DNA of 64,000 nucleotides from Burkholderiales bacterium (lineage in GTDB: Bacteria > Pseudomonadota > Gammaproteobacteria > Burkholderiales > Ga0077523): the NCBI GenBank assembly GCA_019745565.1, contig JAIESW010000067.1:124001-188000 (forward strand). Reading direction: 5' to 3'. The notes under the pieces are model-generated. The model was given only the letters and a program-made list of their open reading frames with translations, had not been told where the DNA came from and did no database searches. Made by a program: the position numbers and the translations under genes. Positions 39,603 through 47,297 of this stretch are shown one piece after another (position 1 is the stretch's first letter; the number at the start of each line of letters is the position of its first letter).

Positions 39603-40586
39603 ATGGGATCGCGAACGATGTTCAACGGACTGGGGCAGCGTGCGTTGACGCTGTGCTGCGTGATGCTGCTGTTCACGAGCGGGCGAGTAGCTGCCGACGA
39701 TGCGGTCGTGACCTCGGCCGTGCACTGGGTGTCGCGCGGCGAGGCTCGAATCCACGTCTGGGAGAAGTTCGCCGGCTCACCCACGGGCAAGCCGGTGCTG
39801 ATCCTTGCGCACGGCTCGGCCACGGCGGGCAAGGAGAGCTTCGATCTTGCAGTGCCCGGGCGGACCGACTACAGCCTGATGGATCATTTCGCTCGCGCCG
39901 GCTTCGACGTGTTCGCGCCGGACGTGCACGGGTTCGGTCGCTCGACGCATCCCGAGGGTTACGTCACGACCGATGCGGCGGCGGAGGACCTGGATTCGGT
40001 CGTCGATGCCGTCCGACGCGAGCGCGGCGTGCCGCGCGTGCATGTGGTGGCGTGGTCGTGGGGCACGCAGTACGCGGGGATGTTCGTCTCCGCCCATGGC
40101 GACAAGGTCGATCGTTACGTGAGCTATGCGCAGATGCACGCGGACAGCCCCGACATCGTCCGGCGCCGTGCCGACCTCGAGCGGTATCGGAGCACCGCGT
40201 GGATCGCTGTGCCGCGCGATGCCTGGAAGGCGCGCTTCCGGTCCCTGACCCCGCCGGAAGTCACCGAACCCGAAGCGATGGAGGCATTCGCCGATGCCGC
40301 CACGGCGATCGAGGTTCGCACGTCCACCGGGCCGCACCTGGACATGGTCACGCGCCTTCCGATGGTGGACCCGACCCGGATCGCCGTGCCCACCCTGATG
40401 ATCCACGGGCAGTACGACGACGTCGCCGACACGGCCGGGCTGCTACCGTTCTTCGGGCAGCTGCCGAACGCCGACAAGCGCTACGTCGTCATTCCCCAGG
40501 CGGGCCACATGATGCACCTGCAGGCGGGGCGGTACGCTTTCTTCGACGCGGTCGTCGATTTCCTGAGGGCAGGCGGATCGCGGTGA
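39603..40586 (+). CDS. exported alpha/beta hydrolase
   Basis: 327 residues. Signal peptide QRALTLCCVMLLFTSGRVAA, then an alpha/beta hydrolase fold: VLILAHGSATAGKESFD (oxyanion region), nucleophile Ser in VVAWSWGTQYAGM (W-S-W-G instead of the usual G-x-S-x-G), Asp in HGQYDDVAD and His in QAGHMMHL. Possible start codons are ATG 39603 or ATG 39618; both keep the signal peptide. Substrate unknown; esterase or lipase-like. It is divergent from the kinase operon and convergent with the antiporter gene. Confidence 0.83.
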   Translation: MGSRTMFNGLGQRALTLCCVMLLFTSGRVAADDAVVTSAVHWVSRGEARIHVWEKFAGSPTGKPVLILAHGSATAGKESFDLAVPGRTDYSLMDHFARAGFDVFAPDVHGFGRSTHPEGYVTTDAAAEDLDSVVDAVRRERGVPRVHVVAWSWGTQYAGMFVSAHGDKVDRYVSYAQMHADSPDIVRRRADLERYRSTAWIAVPRDAWKARFRSLTPPEVTEPEAMEAFADAATAIEVRTSTGPHLDMVTRLPMVDPTRIAVPTLMIHGQYDDVADTAGLLPFFGQLPNADKRYVVIPQAGHMMHLQAGRYAFFDAVVDFLRAGGSR

Positions 40587-40587
40587 A

Positions 40588-40713
40588 TCAACGTCGGGAA
40601 CGACGCAGGGCGGTGCCACTCACGAGCAGCAGGCCCGACGCCATCCAGGCCCAGGTCTCAGGTTCGGGAACCGGGGCTGCGGCCCGGGTCAGATCGGTGC
40701 TGACGCCGGGATC
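40588..40713 (-). pseudogene. orphan PEP-CTERM sorting tail (gene remnant)
   Basis: The minus strand reads PVPEPETWAWMASGLLLVSG followed by TALRRSRR and a stop: a complete PEP-CTERM signal (VPEP, hydrophobic helix, basic end). No exported protein is attached. The frame is open only about 41 codons upstream, to where it meets the stop codon of the antiporter gene in another frame, and has no start codon or signal peptide. It is best read as the 3' scrap of a deleted PEP-CTERM gene between the hydrolase and the antiporter. Confidence 0.7.
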
Positions 40714-42460
40714 AGCCGTTGTGCGCCGCCGCAAGCGCCGCCTGCTGTGCCGACTGGTGATTGTGTGCCGCTGTCATCCGCTCGAGCACGTGGCGCGTCA
40801 TGCTGAGCGCCAGTTCGTGTTCGCCGATGAAGACCATCCCCGCCTGTTCCTTCCGCAGCAGTTCGGCTTCTTCATCGCTGTGAGTACGGACCAGCGTTTC
40901 CACGTCGGGCTTCAGCGTGCGGGCGATCTCGATCATCTTGCGGGCACGGAAGGTGTCCGGGGTCGCGATGACGAGCAGGTGAGCCCGGTGCACGTGGGCC
41001 TGGATCAGCACGGCAGGATCGGACGCGTCGCCGGATACCGCCGGGATGCCGCGGCTGCGCAGCTGTTCGACCACTTCGCGGTTCTGCTCCGCCACGACGA
41101 TGGGGATGCCGCGCTCGATGAGAGCTTCGCCGATGCGTCGGCCGACCCGGCCATAGCCGACGATCAGCACGTGCTCCGTGAGCTGGCTCTGGTCCACGCT
41201 CATGGGCAGTTCCGCGAGCGGATCGTCCGGGCGTTCCATGGCGCGCGCCAGCTTCGAGCGCGAGCGGATCCATTTCTGCAGCGGCTCGATCGCGTTGAAC
41301 AGCAGCGGATTGATCGCGATCGAGATCAGCGCACCCGCCAGGATCAGGCTCTGGCCGTCGGTGGGCAGGAGCTTCATGGCCACGCCGAGGCCGGCCAGGA
41401 TGAACGAGAACTCGCCGATCTGCGCGAGGCTCGCCGAAACCGTCAGTGCCGTGTTGAGCGGGTACCGGAACGCCAGCACGATGAGGAACGCCGCCAGCGT
41501 CTTGCCCACGACGATGATGGCCACGACCACCACGACCTTGAGCGGCTCCTGCAGCAGCATCGCCGGGTCGAACAGCATGCCGACCGACACGAAGAAGAGG
41601 ACCGAGAACGCATCGCGCAGCGGCAGTGATTCGTCGGCGGCACGATGGCTCAGCGCCGATTCGCGCATCACCATGCCTGCGAAGAACGCGCCGAGCGCGA
41701 ACGAGACGCCGAACAGCTTGCCCGAGCCGAACGCGATACCCACCGCGGCCGAGATCACGCACAGCGTGAAGAGTTCGCGCGACCCGGTGCGAGCCACCTG
41801 CCACAGTATCCACGGAAACACGCGGCGGCCCACCACCAGCATCAGCGCCACGAACCCGGCCACCTGACCGAGCGTGATCAGCAGCATGGTCGTGAGGCTG
41901 CGCTCCTCCGTGACCGAGTGCCCGGCGTCGCCGCCCAGCCAGCCGGCCAGCGGCGGCAGCAGCACCAGCACCAGCACCATTGCGAGGTCCTCCACCACCA
42001 GCCAGCCGACGGCGATGCGGCCGTTGATGGACTCGAGCACCCCGCGGCTTTCCAGCGCGCGCAGCAGCACCACGGTGCTCGCGACCGACAGGGCGAGCCC
42101 GAACACCAGGCTGGCACCGAGACTCCAGCCCCAGAAGTACGCCACCCCGCCACCCATCAACGTGGCCACGGCGATCTGGGCGATCGCGCCCGGCACGGCG
42201 ATCTTGCGCACGGCCAGCAGATCTCCCAGCGAGAAGTGCAGGCCGACGCCGAACATCAGCAGCATCACGCCGATCTCCGCGAGCTGCGTGGCGAGTTCCA
42301 CGTCGGCCACGAAGCCCGGCGTGGCCGGGCCGATCATGATGCCGGCGACCAGATAGCCGACCAGTGCCGGCAGCTTGAGACGGACGGCGACGAAGCCGAG
42401 GATCAGCGCCAGGCCGAGTGCGGCCGCGATGGTGGTGATGAGCGTGATTTCGTGGGGCAA
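40712..42460 (-). CDS. Kef-type K+/H+ (CPA2) antiporter with TrkA-N domain
   Basis: 582 residues. About 12 membrane helices of the CPA2 family in residues 1-380 (LPALVGYLVAGIMIGPATPG, LLMFGVGLHFSLGDLL, the ion-site GWLVVEDLAMVLVLVL, AQIGEFSFILAGLG). A cytosolic TrkA-N/RCK domain with VLIVGYGRVGRRIGEALIERG follows. YbaL/KefB-like proteins exchange K+ for protons; Kef systems protect against electrophiles when gated by glutathione adducts. A separate KefF/KefG ancillary gene is absent. The halohydrin-dehalogenase-like gene lies 142 bp upstream on the same strand. Confidence 0.9.
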   Translation of the reverse strand: MPHEITLITTIAAALGLALILGFVAVRLKLPALVGYLVAGIMIGPATPGFVADVELATQLAEIGVMLLMFGVGLHFSLGDLLAVRKIAVPGAIAQIAVATLMGGGVAYFWGWSLGASLVFGLALSVASTVVLLRALESRGVLESINGRIAVGWLVVEDLAMVLVLVLLPPLAGWLGGDAGHSVTEERSLTTMLLITLGQVAGFVALMLVVGRRVFPWILWQVARTGSRELFTLCVISAAVGIAFGSGKLFGVSFALGAFFAGMVMRESALSHRAADESLPLRDAFSVLFFVSVGMLFDPAMLLQEPLKVVVVVAIIVVGKTLAAFLIVLAFRYPLNTALTVSASLAQIGEFSFILAGLGVAMKLLPTDGQSLILAGALISIAINPLLFNAIEPLQKWIRSRSKLARAMERPDDPLAELPMSVDQSQLTEHVLIVGYGRVGRRIGEALIERGIPIVVAEQNREVVEQLRSRGIPAVSGDASDPAVLIQAHVHRAHLLVIATPDTFRARKMIEIARTLKPDVETLVRTHSDEEAELLRKEQAGMVFIGEHELALSMTRHVLERMTAAHNHQSAQQAALAAAHNG

Positions 42461-42602
42461 GGTGTGGTTCCGGTGGCGCGGGTGATGCTGTTTGGATAGG
42501 GCCCGCGCGGCTCGAGACTGACTCGCTCAGGGCCCAGTAGAGACGACGATACCATCCACAAGTTCGCGGCGGACTGCAGATTCGTTGCAGCGCCGCGGCA
42601 GG

Positions 42603-43286
42603 TCAGCGTGTCGCCCAGCCGCCACTCACCGGAAAGACCTGGCCCACGAAGCATTCCGCGGCGTCGCTGCACAGGTAGGCCGCGAACAGGGCATCCTCCC
42701 GCGCCGACACGAGACGCCCCAGCGGCACCTCGCGCTTCAATCGTTCCTGGAACGCAGGCTTCGCCTGCAACTCGGCCGGGAAATAGGTGGGGTTGTCGAC
42801 GAAGTTCTGCGCGATGGCATTGATGCGGATGCCGAGCGGGGCGAGTTCGACGCCGACAGCCTGCGCCCAGGCGAGCTGTGCGCCGCGCGCCGCGCTGTAG
42901 GACGACGTGCGCTTCATGCCGCGCAATGCCGAGGCGCTGCCCATGACGAGGAAGCGGCCCCGGCCCCGGGCCTGCATCTGCGGCAGCACCGCCTTCAGCA
43001 GGCGCGGCAACGGATCGACCATGTGCGCGAAGACGTGACGCCATTCGGCTTCGCTGACTTCGGCGGCCGGGGTCGAAGGTGCCGGCACGGCGAGATTCGC
43101 GAGCAGCACGTCGATGTCCCCTGCAGCGGCCACGGCCGCCGCAGCCGCTGCCGGCGCGTCGAGAGCCCGCGTGTCGGCCACGATCTCGGCACCGCATTCG
43201 GACAGGGTCGCCTGCAGTGCCGGACCCATGAACTGGTCGGCCTGCGTGAGCAGGATGCGCAGACGGGAGAGATCGATGGGCGGCAT
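42603..43286 (-). CDS. halohydrin dehalogenase-like SDR-fold protein
   Basis: 227 residues with an SDR fold but no NAD(P) glycine motif. The N terminus reads LLTQADQFMG, the T-x4-F-x-G pattern (T14, F19, G21) that halohydrin dehalogenases have at the cofactor site, where they bind halide. The catalytic residues are S117-x12-Y130-x3-R134 (MGSAS...SSYSAAR), with Arg instead of the SDR Lys, again the halohydrin dehalogenase triad. NFVDNPTYFPAE parallels the aromatic substrate loop of HheC, and GQVFPVSGGW the C-terminal part. Such enzymes turn vicinal halohydrins into epoxides and back. An ordinary inactive SDR is the alternative. It is upstream of the Kef-type antiporter. Confidence 0.75.
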   Translation of the reverse strand: MPPIDLSRLRILLTQADQFMGPALQATLSECGAEIVADTRALDAPAAAAAAVAAAGDIDVLLANLAVPAPSTPAAEVSEAEWRHVFAHMVDPLPRLLKAVLPQMQARGRGRFLVMGSASALRGMKRTSSYSAARGAQLAWAQAVGVELAPLGIRINAIAQNFVDNPTYFPAELQAKPAFQERLKREVPLGRLVSAREDALFAAYLCSDAAECFVGQVFPVSGGWATR

Positions 43287-43376
43287 GGGGAATCCCGGAA
43301 TGGCGCGCGAACGCCGATCCTCCGAAGCATAGCGGCACGCGCCGCCGCCGCAAGCTGATCGAGGGGGCGAGGCGCG

Positions 43377-45605
43377 TCAGCGCCGCCGGCCGCCTCCACC
43401 GCCATGGAAGCCATGTCCGGGGCCGCTGCGCCCAGGGGCTTGTGCGATCGCAACGTTGTGCGAAGGTGCGAAGCCGCGCCCGTCCGCGTTGTTGCCGAAG
43501 GAGCGGCCTTCGAACCGGTCGCTCAACGCCGGCGCGGGCATCGTACGATGCTCGAAGTTCATCGGTCGTCCGGGATTGTCGTGCCAGGAGGACGGTGAAC
43601 GTACCGAGGCTGCGCCGGGCGCCGGACCTGCCACCGGCGGCGTGGCGCGCTGGGCCGAGGGCGGTACCGTGATCCATTGGGACCGCGAGGGCGGCATCGA
43701 CGATCCGCCGGACCACGCGCGAGGCGCGGTTGCGTCACCCCGGACGATCGTCGGGAGCGATGCCGGTGTCGACGAACGGGACGGTCCTCCGGTGATCGAG
43801 AGGGGATGTGGAGCCGCTGCGCTGCCCCAGCGGTTGTAGACATTCGTGATCGTCGTCCGGTTTGCGACGAATTGCTGGGGCACGGGTGCTGCGGGAGCGA
43901 CGCGCGTAACGATGACCGTCGAGCCCCACGGCCCCCACCAGGGGCGGAAACCCCAGTAGGGGCGCGGATAGAACGGCGGTCCCCACGGACTCCACCAGGT
44001 GTCGCACCAGCCGAACCCGAAACCCCACGTGATCGGCGGGCTGTACCAGACCGTGCCGATCCATGGGCGATAGCGCCAGCCGGTGCCGTACACGACGGTG
44101 CCGCCCGCCACATAGGAACCCACGTAGCCCGACGTGTACCCCGTGGCGACGGCGTCGTCCCCTGATCCGTAGAGGCGGACGTAGGTCACGTAATGCAGCG
44201 GCGAACTCGGCGGGATGGCGTAGATCACGGGCGGTACGTACGTCGCGACCGACCACGGGCCCATGGGGTTCGATGCAACGAACCAGACACCGTTGTCGAG
44301 GGCATAGAAATCGTTGGCGTCCACGCGGATCACCGGCATGGGTGCGTTCACGGCGGATTGCAGGCGCGTCCCGGCGATGGGCTCGAACCGTGGCTCGCCG
44401 TCGTAGGTGATATCGAGCGTGGCCGCGTTGCGCTTGACGGTGGCCACCTGTGGCACGTTCGTCGCGATGACCGCCTCCTCCGCCTGCGGTGTGCCGGGCA
44501 CCGACGCACGCACGCCGGCGACGGGACTGTCGGGCGGGATCGCCGCGAAGTCCGCCGGCAGGCTCTCGCCCGGCAACCAGCGCCAGGGGCCGTCGCGCAG
44601 CGAATCCGACTGGAACCACCGCCCAGAAAGGAGCACGTAGTGCCGCCGGTTGCGCGAGTCGAGGAAGAGCTGGTTCGGCGAGTTCGTGACGTACGACAGC
44701 CGCGTGTTCGGGATCGCGGCGTACTGCGGCGGTCCGTCGGTCTGGATCAGCTCCGTCGGCGCCGCGCTGACCACGATCTCCGGCAGGCCGTTGCGACCGT
44801 TCTGCGGTCGTTCCAGCAGATCGACGCGGCCGGTGGCTGCGGCTTCGTCGCGCAACTCTTCGAGGCCCGCCGGCGCCGCCGCAATGGGTCCCCATGGCCC
44901 GTCGATCGCCGGCGCTTCGAACCAGGCCTTCGCCACCGCGAGCGAGTACCGGTTCGTCGCGCGATCCAGAACCAGAAACGCGCGCGTGTTGATGACTCGC
45001 GAGTACGAGGTGCCGTCGATCTCCCGCAGCGCCGGTTCGCCGTCCACCGGAACCAGCAGTGCCGGCTGATCGCGATAGACGATGCGCGGCGCTTCGTCGT
45101 GCGGCGGTCGCACGCGGAACAGACGCCGGGCATTGTCGATGTCGACGTCGGCCTGCAACCGGTCGAGGGGAACGCTCCAGCCATCATCGGGAAGCTGTTC
45201 GCGGAACGCGGCGAGGAACGCTTGCTCCCGTGCCGTCGCCGTCGGAAACCGGACCTTCGTGATCGCTATGTCGCGGATGGTGACCCGCCGCGATCCGGCG
45301 TCCACGATCGTGCGCGCCGTCAACGAGATCTCGCCGTAGTCGGGCCGGGCGGCAGCGCCCGCTTGCGCTCCCACGGCGGCGCGAGCGCGCAGGCGGTCAT
45401 CCTGCCATTCGTCGAATTGCGGGTAGTACATGGTGTACGTGACGCCGTCTGCAACGAATCGCAACGGCCACGTGGTCCCCGAGGGAGCTGTCGCGGATGC
45501 TGCAGGGACGGCACCGTCTTCCGCGGTGTCGGCAAGCACGGCTGCCGCGACTCCGCCGAGGCTGAGCGCATACAACGCACCAATGATGACGACTCCGGAT
45601 CTCAT
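43377..45605 (-). CDS. large exported Trp/Gly/Pro-rich protein of unknown function
   Basis: 742 residues. Signal peptide MRSGVVIIGALYALSLGGVAAAVLA. The N-terminal 500 residues contain repeated envelope-protein-like modules (FFALDNGVWF-type strands: NQLFLDSRNRRHYVLLSGRWFQSD, FYALDNGVWFVASNPMGPWSVATYVPPVIYAIP). Then comes a Trp/Tyr/Gly-rich part (WRYRPWIGTVWYSPPITWGFGFGW) and a low-complexity Pro/Ser tail ending HGFHGGGGGRRR. This resembles large Burkholderiales proteins sometimes annotated as carbohydrate-binding family V/XII or DUF3300-like, without experimental role. GAGGAGCG precedes ATG 45605. Secretion is certain from the signal; function is unknown. Confidence 0.75.
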   Translation of the reverse strand: MRSGVVIIGALYALSLGGVAAAVLADTAEDGAVPAASATAPSGTTWPLRFVADGVTYTMYYPQFDEWQDDRLRARAAVGAQAGAAARPDYGEISLTARTIVDAGSRRVTIRDIAITKVRFPTATAREQAFLAAFREQLPDDGWSVPLDRLQADVDIDNARRLFRVRPPHDEAPRIVYRDQPALLVPVDGEPALREIDGTSYSRVINTRAFLVLDRATNRYSLAVAKAWFEAPAIDGPWGPIAAAPAGLEELRDEAAATGRVDLLERPQNGRNGLPEIVVSAAPTELIQTDGPPQYAAIPNTRLSYVTNSPNQLFLDSRNRRHYVLLSGRWFQSDSLRDGPWRWLPGESLPADFAAIPPDSPVAGVRASVPGTPQAEEAVIATNVPQVATVKRNAATLDITYDGEPRFEPIAGTRLQSAVNAPMPVIRVDANDFYALDNGVWFVASNPMGPWSVATYVPPVIYAIPPSSPLHYVTYVRLYGSGDDAVATGYTSGYVGSYVAGGTVVYGTGWRYRPWIGTVWYSPPITWGFGFGWCDTWWSPWGPPFYPRPYWGFRPWWGPWGSTVIVTRVAPAAPVPQQFVANRTTITNVYNRWGSAAAPHPLSITGGPSRSSTPASLPTIVRGDATAPRAWSGGSSMPPSRSQWITVPPSAQRATPPVAGPAPGAASVRSPSSWHDNPGRPMNFEHRTMPAPALSDRFEGRSFGNNADGRGFAPSHNVAIAQAPGRSGPGHGFHGGGGGRRR

Positions 45606-45797
45606 GGCAGCGCTCCTCGATTCAGGGCCGGTACGGACCGGCGCGCGGTGCCTCAGCGTAGGAGCGCGATGCTTACGACAACCTTTCGCGACCGGACGGT
45701 CGCGACGCATCGAACCCGCGCCCTCATGCTCCAGTGACCGTCCGATCCCCCGGTAAGTTCAAGGACGGCGACCGCGCACCTTCGTCCGGACGGGGCG

Positions 45798-46100
45798 TCA
45801 GACCTTGAACGTGCGCCGGATCTCGGGCTGCACCAGATCGATGTACTCGGGATGCTTGCGCAGATAGGCCGCGATGAACGGGCACGCGGGGATCACGTGC
45901 TTGCCCTGCTTGCGCGCATCGTCGAGCACGCCCGCGGCGATGAATCCGCCGACGCCCTTGCCTTCGTGCTCCGGCAGGACCTCGGTGTGGGTGAACATGA
46001 TGCTGTCGGAGAGCAGGTTGTACTCGGAGTATCCGACCAGCACGGCGTCGTCGAAGGCCTCGTAGCGGTGCAGCGGATCGTTGTTCTTGAGTGTGAGCAT
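45798..46100 (-). CDS. YjdJ-type small GNAT acetyltransferase
   Basis: 100 residues of the small GNAT subfamily (YjdJ/GtlA-like). MFTHTEVLPEHEGKGVGGFIAAGVLDDARKQG carries the acetyl-CoA loop, followed by the diagnostic VIPACPFIAAYLRKHPEY. The family probably acetylates small amines; substrate unknown. Cytoplasmic. It starts 18 bp after the threonine-aldolase-like gene on the same strand and is likely co-transcribed with it. Confidence 0.87.
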   Translation of the reverse strand: MLTLKNNDPLHRYEAFDDAVLVGYSEYNLLSDSIMFTHTEVLPEHEGKGVGGFIAAGVLDDARKQGKHVIPACPFIAAYLRKHPEYIDLVQPEIRRTFKV

Positions 46101-46118
46101 GGTACGGTCGGGCGGCGG

Positions 46119-47297
46119 TCAACCCGCGAGCGCGCGGCGAAGCTGGTCTGCGAGCTTCGGACCGTTCGTGCGGTTCCAGGTTTCGTTGACGTTGAGTACG
46201 AAGACCGCGCCATCGTTCCCGCGCACCGGCGCCGGCATCACCACCCCTTGCGCGCGCATGCGCTCGGGCAGGGATTCGGCCTTCGCGTCGTTGACGATCA
46301 TCCGGAAGACGTTGGTGCCGTTGGTAACGCGCTCCACGCGCAGCGGTCCGCCGGTGGCAGCCTTCTGAAACTGATCGAACACGGTGATGGCGGACGCGAA
46401 TCGCCCGACGAAGCCCTCGGCGTAGCGCCGCGCCAGCATCGCAAACGGCCAGGCATTGAACAATGCACCCCCGAACATCCTGCGAGTATGCGCCATGCCG
46501 TCGAGCGCCGCGGCCGGTCCGGCGAGTATCGCGCCGTTCACCGAGTTGAAGCATTTCCAGAGCGAGACGTAGACCGTATCGAACGGCGCCGCGTAGTCCG
46601 CGGGAGCGATGCCGGTGTAGGCCGAAGCGATGAACATGCGCGCGCCGTCGAGGTGCAGGCCGATGCCGCGGCGGCGGGCTTCCGTACACACCCGCGTCAT
46701 CTCGGCGCGATCGAACAGCTCGCCGTAGCGACGACGTACCGGGGATTCGATCGAGATCGCTCCGATCGACGCGGCGACGCGCCCCGACGCCGTGCGGGCG
46801 ACGGCACGCTCCACCTCTGCCCATGTGAACGTGGCGCGGTCGGGCGCGAGCGGCAGCAGCGTCAGGCCGCTCAGCGTCTGGCTCGCGTCGCCGGTGTCGT
46901 TGTAGACGTGGCTCACGTCCTGCACGGCCGCGCGGCGGCGATTGCCGGCGAGCGCGCGCAGCGCGAGTTGGTTCGCGAGCGTGCCGGTGGGCATGAACAG
47001 CGCGCGCTCCTTGCCGAGGAGCCGCGCGAACCAGGCTTCGGTTTCCTCCACGATGCCGCCAAGGCCGTAGATGTCCATCGCGGGCGGTTGCGCCGCGCAC
47101 AGTCGCGCGAGTTCGGCGGAAACCTCCGCCGGGGTCAACGACAGCCCATCCTGCTCGAGATGGACCAGCGCCGATGCTTCGGATGCGGAATCGGATGGGG
47201 CGCTCATGGCCGGCAATGGTATGCCGAGCGCACTCGCCGCTGCCAGTTGTCCGAAGAAACGGCGGCGTGGGAGATCCTGCGATTCGAGCTTGCTCAT
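46119..47297 (-). CDS. threonine-aldolase-like PLP enzyme with Tat signal
   Basis: 392 residues. Residues 1-31 are a Tat signal (LPRRRFFGQLAAASALGIPLPAMSA). The body is a fold-type I PLP enzyme of the beta-eliminating lyase/L-threonine aldolase group: MPTGTLANQLALRALAG, the cofactor-Asp region GLHLDGARMFIAS, and the Schiff-base Lys in VYVSLWKCFNSVNGAILAGP (SLWK, where cytosolic threonine aldolases have SxSKG). Export of a PLP enzyme implies cytoplasmic cofactor loading before Tat transport. The substrate is unknown. The downstream partner is a small GNAT. Confidence 0.83.
   Translation of the reverse strand: MSKLESQDLPRRRFFGQLAAASALGIPLPAMSAPSDSASEASALVHLEQDGLSLTPAEVSAELARLCAAQPPAMDIYGLGGIVEETEAWFARLLGKERALFMPTGTLANQLALRALAGNRRRAAVQDVSHVYNDTGDASQTLSGLTLLPLAPDRATFTWAEVERAVARTASGRVAASIGAISIESPVRRRYGELFDRAEMTRVCTEARRRGIGLHLDGARMFIASAYTGIAPADYAAPFDTVYVSLWKCFNSVNGAILAGPAAALDGMAHTRRMFGGALFNAWPFAMLARRYAEGFVGRFASAITVFDQFQKAATGGPLRVERVTNGTNVFRMIVNDAKAESLPERMRAQGVVMPAPVRGNDGAVFVLNVNETWNRTNGPKLADQLRRALAG

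Follow-up and report, generated by a model that had tools for sequence, protein, structure and literature searches.

What does the gene at positions 42603 to 43286 of the window (the whole stretch of 64,000 nucleotides analysed here, from a Burkholderiales bacterium) encode, and what might its product do for the cell? Pfam and NCBIfam assign the product to generic SDR families only, and no NCBIfam cut-off is reached. The first-pass annotation had proposed a halohydrin dehalogenase (HHDH) hidden as a generic SDR, a fair wording since generic SDR is all that these two resources return. It had placed the gene correctly and given no strand; the open reading frame lies on the minus strand, with its ATG start at 43286 and its stop codon at 42603-42605. 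HHDHs work without a cofactor and turn halo-alcohols into epoxides, a reaction that is reversible with anions (PMC4989007). Motifs, identity to HheD2, a tree and a structural model strongly support the proposed HHDH identity, and leave very little doubt that the gene, called hheD below, encodes a cofactor-independent D-type enzyme (HheD subtype) of 227 amino acids with an SDR fold. The query extends the HheD branch, a subtype defined and characterised before, by a new sequence that Pfam and NCBIfam label merely as generic SDR.

The first line of evidence is the pair of motifs. HHDHs are defined by T-x4-F/Y-x-G and S-x12-Y-x3-R, and ordinary SDRs by T-G/A-x3-G/A-x-G and S-x10-14-Y-x3-K (PMC11976700, PMC4989007). 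The HHDH pair has led to 37 HHDH genes, of which 19 were chosen and expressed, all of these 19 being confirmed as active (PMC4989007). Both signatures are present in the hheD product at the residues given in the first-pass annotation. Motif 1, T14-QADQ-F19-M-G21 (residues 14-21; 43224-43247, minus strand), is the predicted nucleophile/halide pocket segment and replaces the NAD(P) glycine motif, and motif 2, S117-x12-Y130-x3-R134 (residues 117-134; 42885-42938, minus strand), is the predicted catalytic one. Neither T-G-x3-G/A-x-G nor Y-x3-K, as found in NAD(P)-dependent SDRs, can be read in the protein: T14 is followed by QADQFMG, and the residue closing Y130-x3 is R134. The same genome gave 48 matches to the product at E <= 0.001, that is, 47 SDR paralogues besides itself. 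A T-x4-F/Y-x-G string occurs within the first 120 residues of two of these 47, and the two HHDH motifs occur together in none of them. By aligned position, both motifs are kept in 79 of the 80 best orthologues. These paralogue and orthologue counts show that the motif matches exceed chance.

A loop at residues 160-171 (Q160-NFVDNPTYFP-A171; 42774-42809, minus strand) aligns with the halide/substrate loop of HheC and HheA. In full it reads N161-FVDN-P166-TYFPAE, so that the NxxxxPTYFPAE loop noted earlier is indeed present; its sequence is nearer to HheD2 and HheA (NFFNNPTYFP) than to HheC (NYLHSEDSPYFYP). In the alignments and the model, Ser117, Tyr130 and Arg134 are shown at the positions of the HHDH catalytic triad, and the T-x4-F-x-G segment together with the NFVDNPTYFP loop is shown to fill the site that holds the cofactor in NAD(P)-dependent SDRs and that would form the halide/nucleophile pocket of an HHDH.

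Comparison with proteins of known structure points to the same family and to one subtype within it. The top PDB sequence matches are HheD2 (7B73; PMC9629495, PMC5892878) at 318 bits, HheD8 (8XXB) at 278 bits and HheB at 166 bits, with ordinary SDRs below 78 bits. Over aligned residues, the product is 67.7% identical to HheD2, 61.6% to HheD8, 43.2% to HheB, 30.1% to HheA2, 28.9% to HheG and 25.5% to HheC. HheD19-38 are 57-95% identical to verified D enzymes, and identity between subtypes is given as below 30% (PMC4989007). The values for HheD2 and HheD8 fall in the D range and those for A, C and G at 25-30%; the 43% shared with HheB exceeds the quoted between-subtype limit.

HheD2 is the closest likeness. 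It has both motifs in common with the query, and of the 29 residues compared in motifs, triad and loop, 28 are shared; only residue 18, which motif 1 leaves free, differs, whereas catalytic residues and those lining the pocket are the same. About a third of the residues nevertheless differ, the query branches elsewhere in the D clade, and HheD2 is gammaproteobacterial whereas the named relatives of the query genome are Betaproteobacteria/Burkholderiales. HheD8 shares the motifs and the loop at 62% identity, and its solved entry, the triple mutant A69F/M124P/R127G, contains chloride. Judging by the name of this mutant, A69 and M124 of the query are as in wild-type HheD8, whereas T127 stands in place of an arginine. 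HheB (4ZD6) has the same triad, but its motif 1 has Tyr for the Phe of the query and its loop reads QHWTQNKEYFW against QNFVDNPTYFP. A fourth comparison is offered by HheD12, a subgroup D enzyme from P. pelagia CL-AP6 (PMC6922532): in this Halopseudomonas (Pseudomonas pertucinogena) lineage, the hheD of CL-AP6 is 69% identical to the query, and the genomic surroundings are unlike those seen here.

Structure prediction agrees with this assignment. The AlphaFold2 model, built on a 70-row alignment, has a pLDDT of 94.5 and a pTM of 0.91; a model from an orthologue-only alignment had weak loops at residues 118-126 and 162-164, and the broader alignment cured both. With Foldseek against the PDB, the four HheD2 chains rank first (TM on query 0.95-0.96, 0.6-0.9 Å), followed by HheD8 (1.4 Å) and HheB (about 1.4 Å); NAD(P)-dependent SDRs come after the HHDHs, at 2.2 Å or more and with 28% identity at most. 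The lack of a halide pocket in a model had been named as a finding that would speak against an HHDH. The model points the other way: it superposes on HheD2 with a TM of 0.96 at 0.6 Å, the pocket residues are identical, and an SDR-like fold is predicted with a halide/nucleophile pocket at the cofactor site, the pocket being judged by residue identity and global superposition. HHDHs are homotetramers (PMC4989007).

A tree of 47 rows was then used to place the query, comprising references (HheA2, HheC and HheG as PDB sequences), orthologues, same-genus and same-order copies and, as the only outgroup, seven SDRs of the same genome. HheD2, HheD8 and the query share a clade (support 93/88), which HheB joins as its sister (99/90). 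Clustering with ordinary SDRs was not seen: those of the same genome form one group, separated from the query by a 100/96 branch. The deep order of the HHDH subtypes is unsure because the HheG, HheA2 and HheC branches are long, but the position of the query among the D-type enzymes does not depend on it. Several forks within the D clade are weakly supported, which leaves it unsure as well which characterised D enzyme is closest.

If the enzyme works like its characterised relatives, Ser117 and Tyr130 would bind the hydroxyl of the substrate, and Arg134 would lower the pKa of Tyr130. The hydroxyl proton would pass to Tyr130 while the oxygen attacks the neighbouring carbon, displacing the halide into the pocket and leaving an epoxide. 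In the reverse direction, an epoxide would be opened by halide, azide, cyanide or nitrite (PMC4989007). Thermostability is higher in several D-type enzymes than in HheC (PMC4989007), and since HHDHs serve epoxide chemistry, the query is a usable biocatalyst candidate.

A scan of genome contigs gave at least 270 confirmed relatives, the best 80 of which were analysed. These 80 are 66-91% identical to the query and mostly from Pseudomonadota; records labelled Phycisphaerales, Deltaproteobacteria and Desulfatitalea contribute one or a few loci each. In its own genus, hheD is present in 10 of 12 genomes, the query genome included (68-100% identity), and in a sample drawn evenly from the class, in 5 of 369. 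The distribution is therefore patchy but not rare, and the earlier description of the family as small overstated its rarity, D-type homologues being numerous in Pseudomonadota. Plasmid spread was looked for in PLSDB, which gave no match to hheD at E 1e-40. A conserved operon was sought across the hheD family and not found, neighbours being shared by close relatives only. Those examined directly next to hheD are housekeeping genes or unrelated ones, among them the genes for DUF6172, GNAT, DnaT, a RadA-like protein, HSP20, a glycosyltransferase, a translation-factor-type GTPase and pyruvate phosphate dikinase. The gene appears to stand alone rather than to form part of a conserved operon. D-type genes are retained by many unrelated bacteria without a common operon.

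One alternative keeps the HHDH fold and triad, and gives the protein another epoxide- or nucleophile-related reaction as its natural job, for example the addition or removal of an anion other than a halide, dehalogenation being an incidental activity. We regard this as possible, though the less likely course. Further physiological functions of HHDHs could not be excluded in a review that knew of only two HHDH genes accompanied in their operon by an epoxide hydrolase gene (PMC4989007), and no neighbour common to the present family points to organohalide breakdown. Moreover, six Halopseudomonas-type carriers of hheD have neither a haloalkane dehalogenase nor an EHN epoxide hydrolase. Against this stands the over-representation of both gene families in genomes with hheD, which fits halo-alcohol breakdown. 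Predicted haloalkane dehalogenases occur in 17 of 42 hheD genomes and in 21 of 369 genomes of the class draw (Fisher p 4e-9), and predicted epoxide hydrolases in 8 of 42 and 12 of 369 (Fisher p 3e-4; the count of 12 being those above the Pfam cut-off), both uncorrected for kinship, genome size and sampling. The family names in these counts are predictions, and scoring was uneven, with at most six candidates per genome in one set and all in another. The comparison is confounded, and we take the co-occurrence as a lead, not as a result.

A more far-reaching idea is that of an organohalide route in three steps, by haloalkane dehalogenase, halohydrin dehalogenase and epoxide hydrolase, kept by the genus as a standing, unlinked part of the genome. 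In the query genome (G000), a predicted haloalkane dehalogenase (C93:39463-40332, L151) scores above the NCBIfam NF002043 cut-off and has the Asp nucleophile in VCQDWGG, and a predicted EHN-type epoxide hydrolase with GGDWGS lies on G000 contig C33 at about 784-1456 (L150); both are on other contigs and unlinked to hheD. Within the genus, the epoxide hydrolase is found in 12 of 12 genomes and the haloalkane dehalogenase in 10 of 12, regardless of hheD detection. We consider such a route rather doubtful. If it were true, D-type HHDHs would be there for organohalides of natural origin and not for industrial pollutants.

The local neighbourhood had suggested another theme, in which hheD and an adjacent Kef-type antiporter cooperate in defence against electrophiles. 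The genes around hheD are all on the minus strand, in the order threonine-aldolase-like gene (Beta_elim_lyase), GNAT, an open reading frame of 777 amino acids, hheD and a YbaL-like CPA2 antiporter with a TrkA_N domain (40712-42460), which we list as a downstream neighbour not shown to belong. As the first-pass annotation had stated, the antiporter gene has hheD upstream of it; the two genes share a strand and are 142 bp apart, and this adjacency is preserved in the nearest sister genome. The protein is however YbaL-like, and not KefB or KefC: it scores 655 bits with the NCBIfam YbaL model, just below its cut-off of 700, but only 238 with KefC (752) and 220 with KefB (804). It falls so far short of the KefB and KefC cut-offs that the known electrophile-gated role of these two proteins is not transferable to it. 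Furthermore, it stands next to hheD in just one of 62 relatives having at least 2.5 kb downstream, namely the nearest sister, and elsewhere hheD is flanked by unrelated genes. On the antiporter scores and the rarity of the adjacency, the Kef link is rejected as a general theme, and cooperation between the two genes is very improbable.

The upstream neighbour, the reading frame of 777 amino acids (43377-45710, minus strand), is likewise not shown to belong. It has no Pfam or NCBIfam match, and its C-terminal half is rich in Gly, Pro and Trp. The two nearest relatives lack it at the site between GNAT and hheD, as a result of either a local gain in the query genome or a loss in the relatives. The nearest sister (L010/L100, 91%) otherwise has the same order, antiporter included, and the other (L009/L101, 90%) has the same upstream part on a contig that ends downstream; the remaining same-genus copies of hheD are at other sites, with other neighbours. 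Promoter-like and terminator-like sites above chance were not found in 40600-46200. Two hydrolases near hheD were considered as epoxide hydrolases and rejected. The alpha/beta hydrolase at 39603-40586 (plus strand) has AWSWG as its nucleophile motif, in which Ser replaces the Asp of epoxide hydrolases, and is likely an exported esterase-like protein, its N-terminus resembling a signal peptide; in a Comamonadaceae-like clade (L024), the hydrolase whose gene converges on hheD also has a Ser nucleophile, in GHSMGG.

The remaining reading, an ordinary NAD(P)-dependent SDR oxidoreductase with coincidental motif matches, draws on the generic Pfam and NCBIfam names and the unreached NCBIfam cut-offs, and is given next to no weight, being ruled out by the tree and model, which place the protein in the HheD clade, by its 68% identity to a solved HHDH, and by motifs (no NAD glycine-rich motif, Arg in place of the catalytic Lys, a motif pair seen in 0 of 47 SDR paralogues).

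Three homologues deserve mention in their own right. The one exception among the 80 best orthologues (L056, 2938-3618) has Ile for Thr14 (IIQANEFMG) and an intact S-Y-R triad, and thereby varies in nature a residue of motif 1 supposed to be fixed; two natural variants at this threonine are mentioned in a 2025 paper (PMC11976700). In a genome of the same order, L099 (G029:C5:123879-124532), 39% identical, combines the S/Y/R triad with T-x4-Y-x-G; in the tree it comes off just outside the group of HheB and HheD, and may represent another HHDH subtype. Finally, the hheD of a contig labelled Deltaproteobacteria (L081, JAGDMS010000310.1) clusters tightly with those of two genomes of the query's genus, which reflects either a binning error or a recent transfer.
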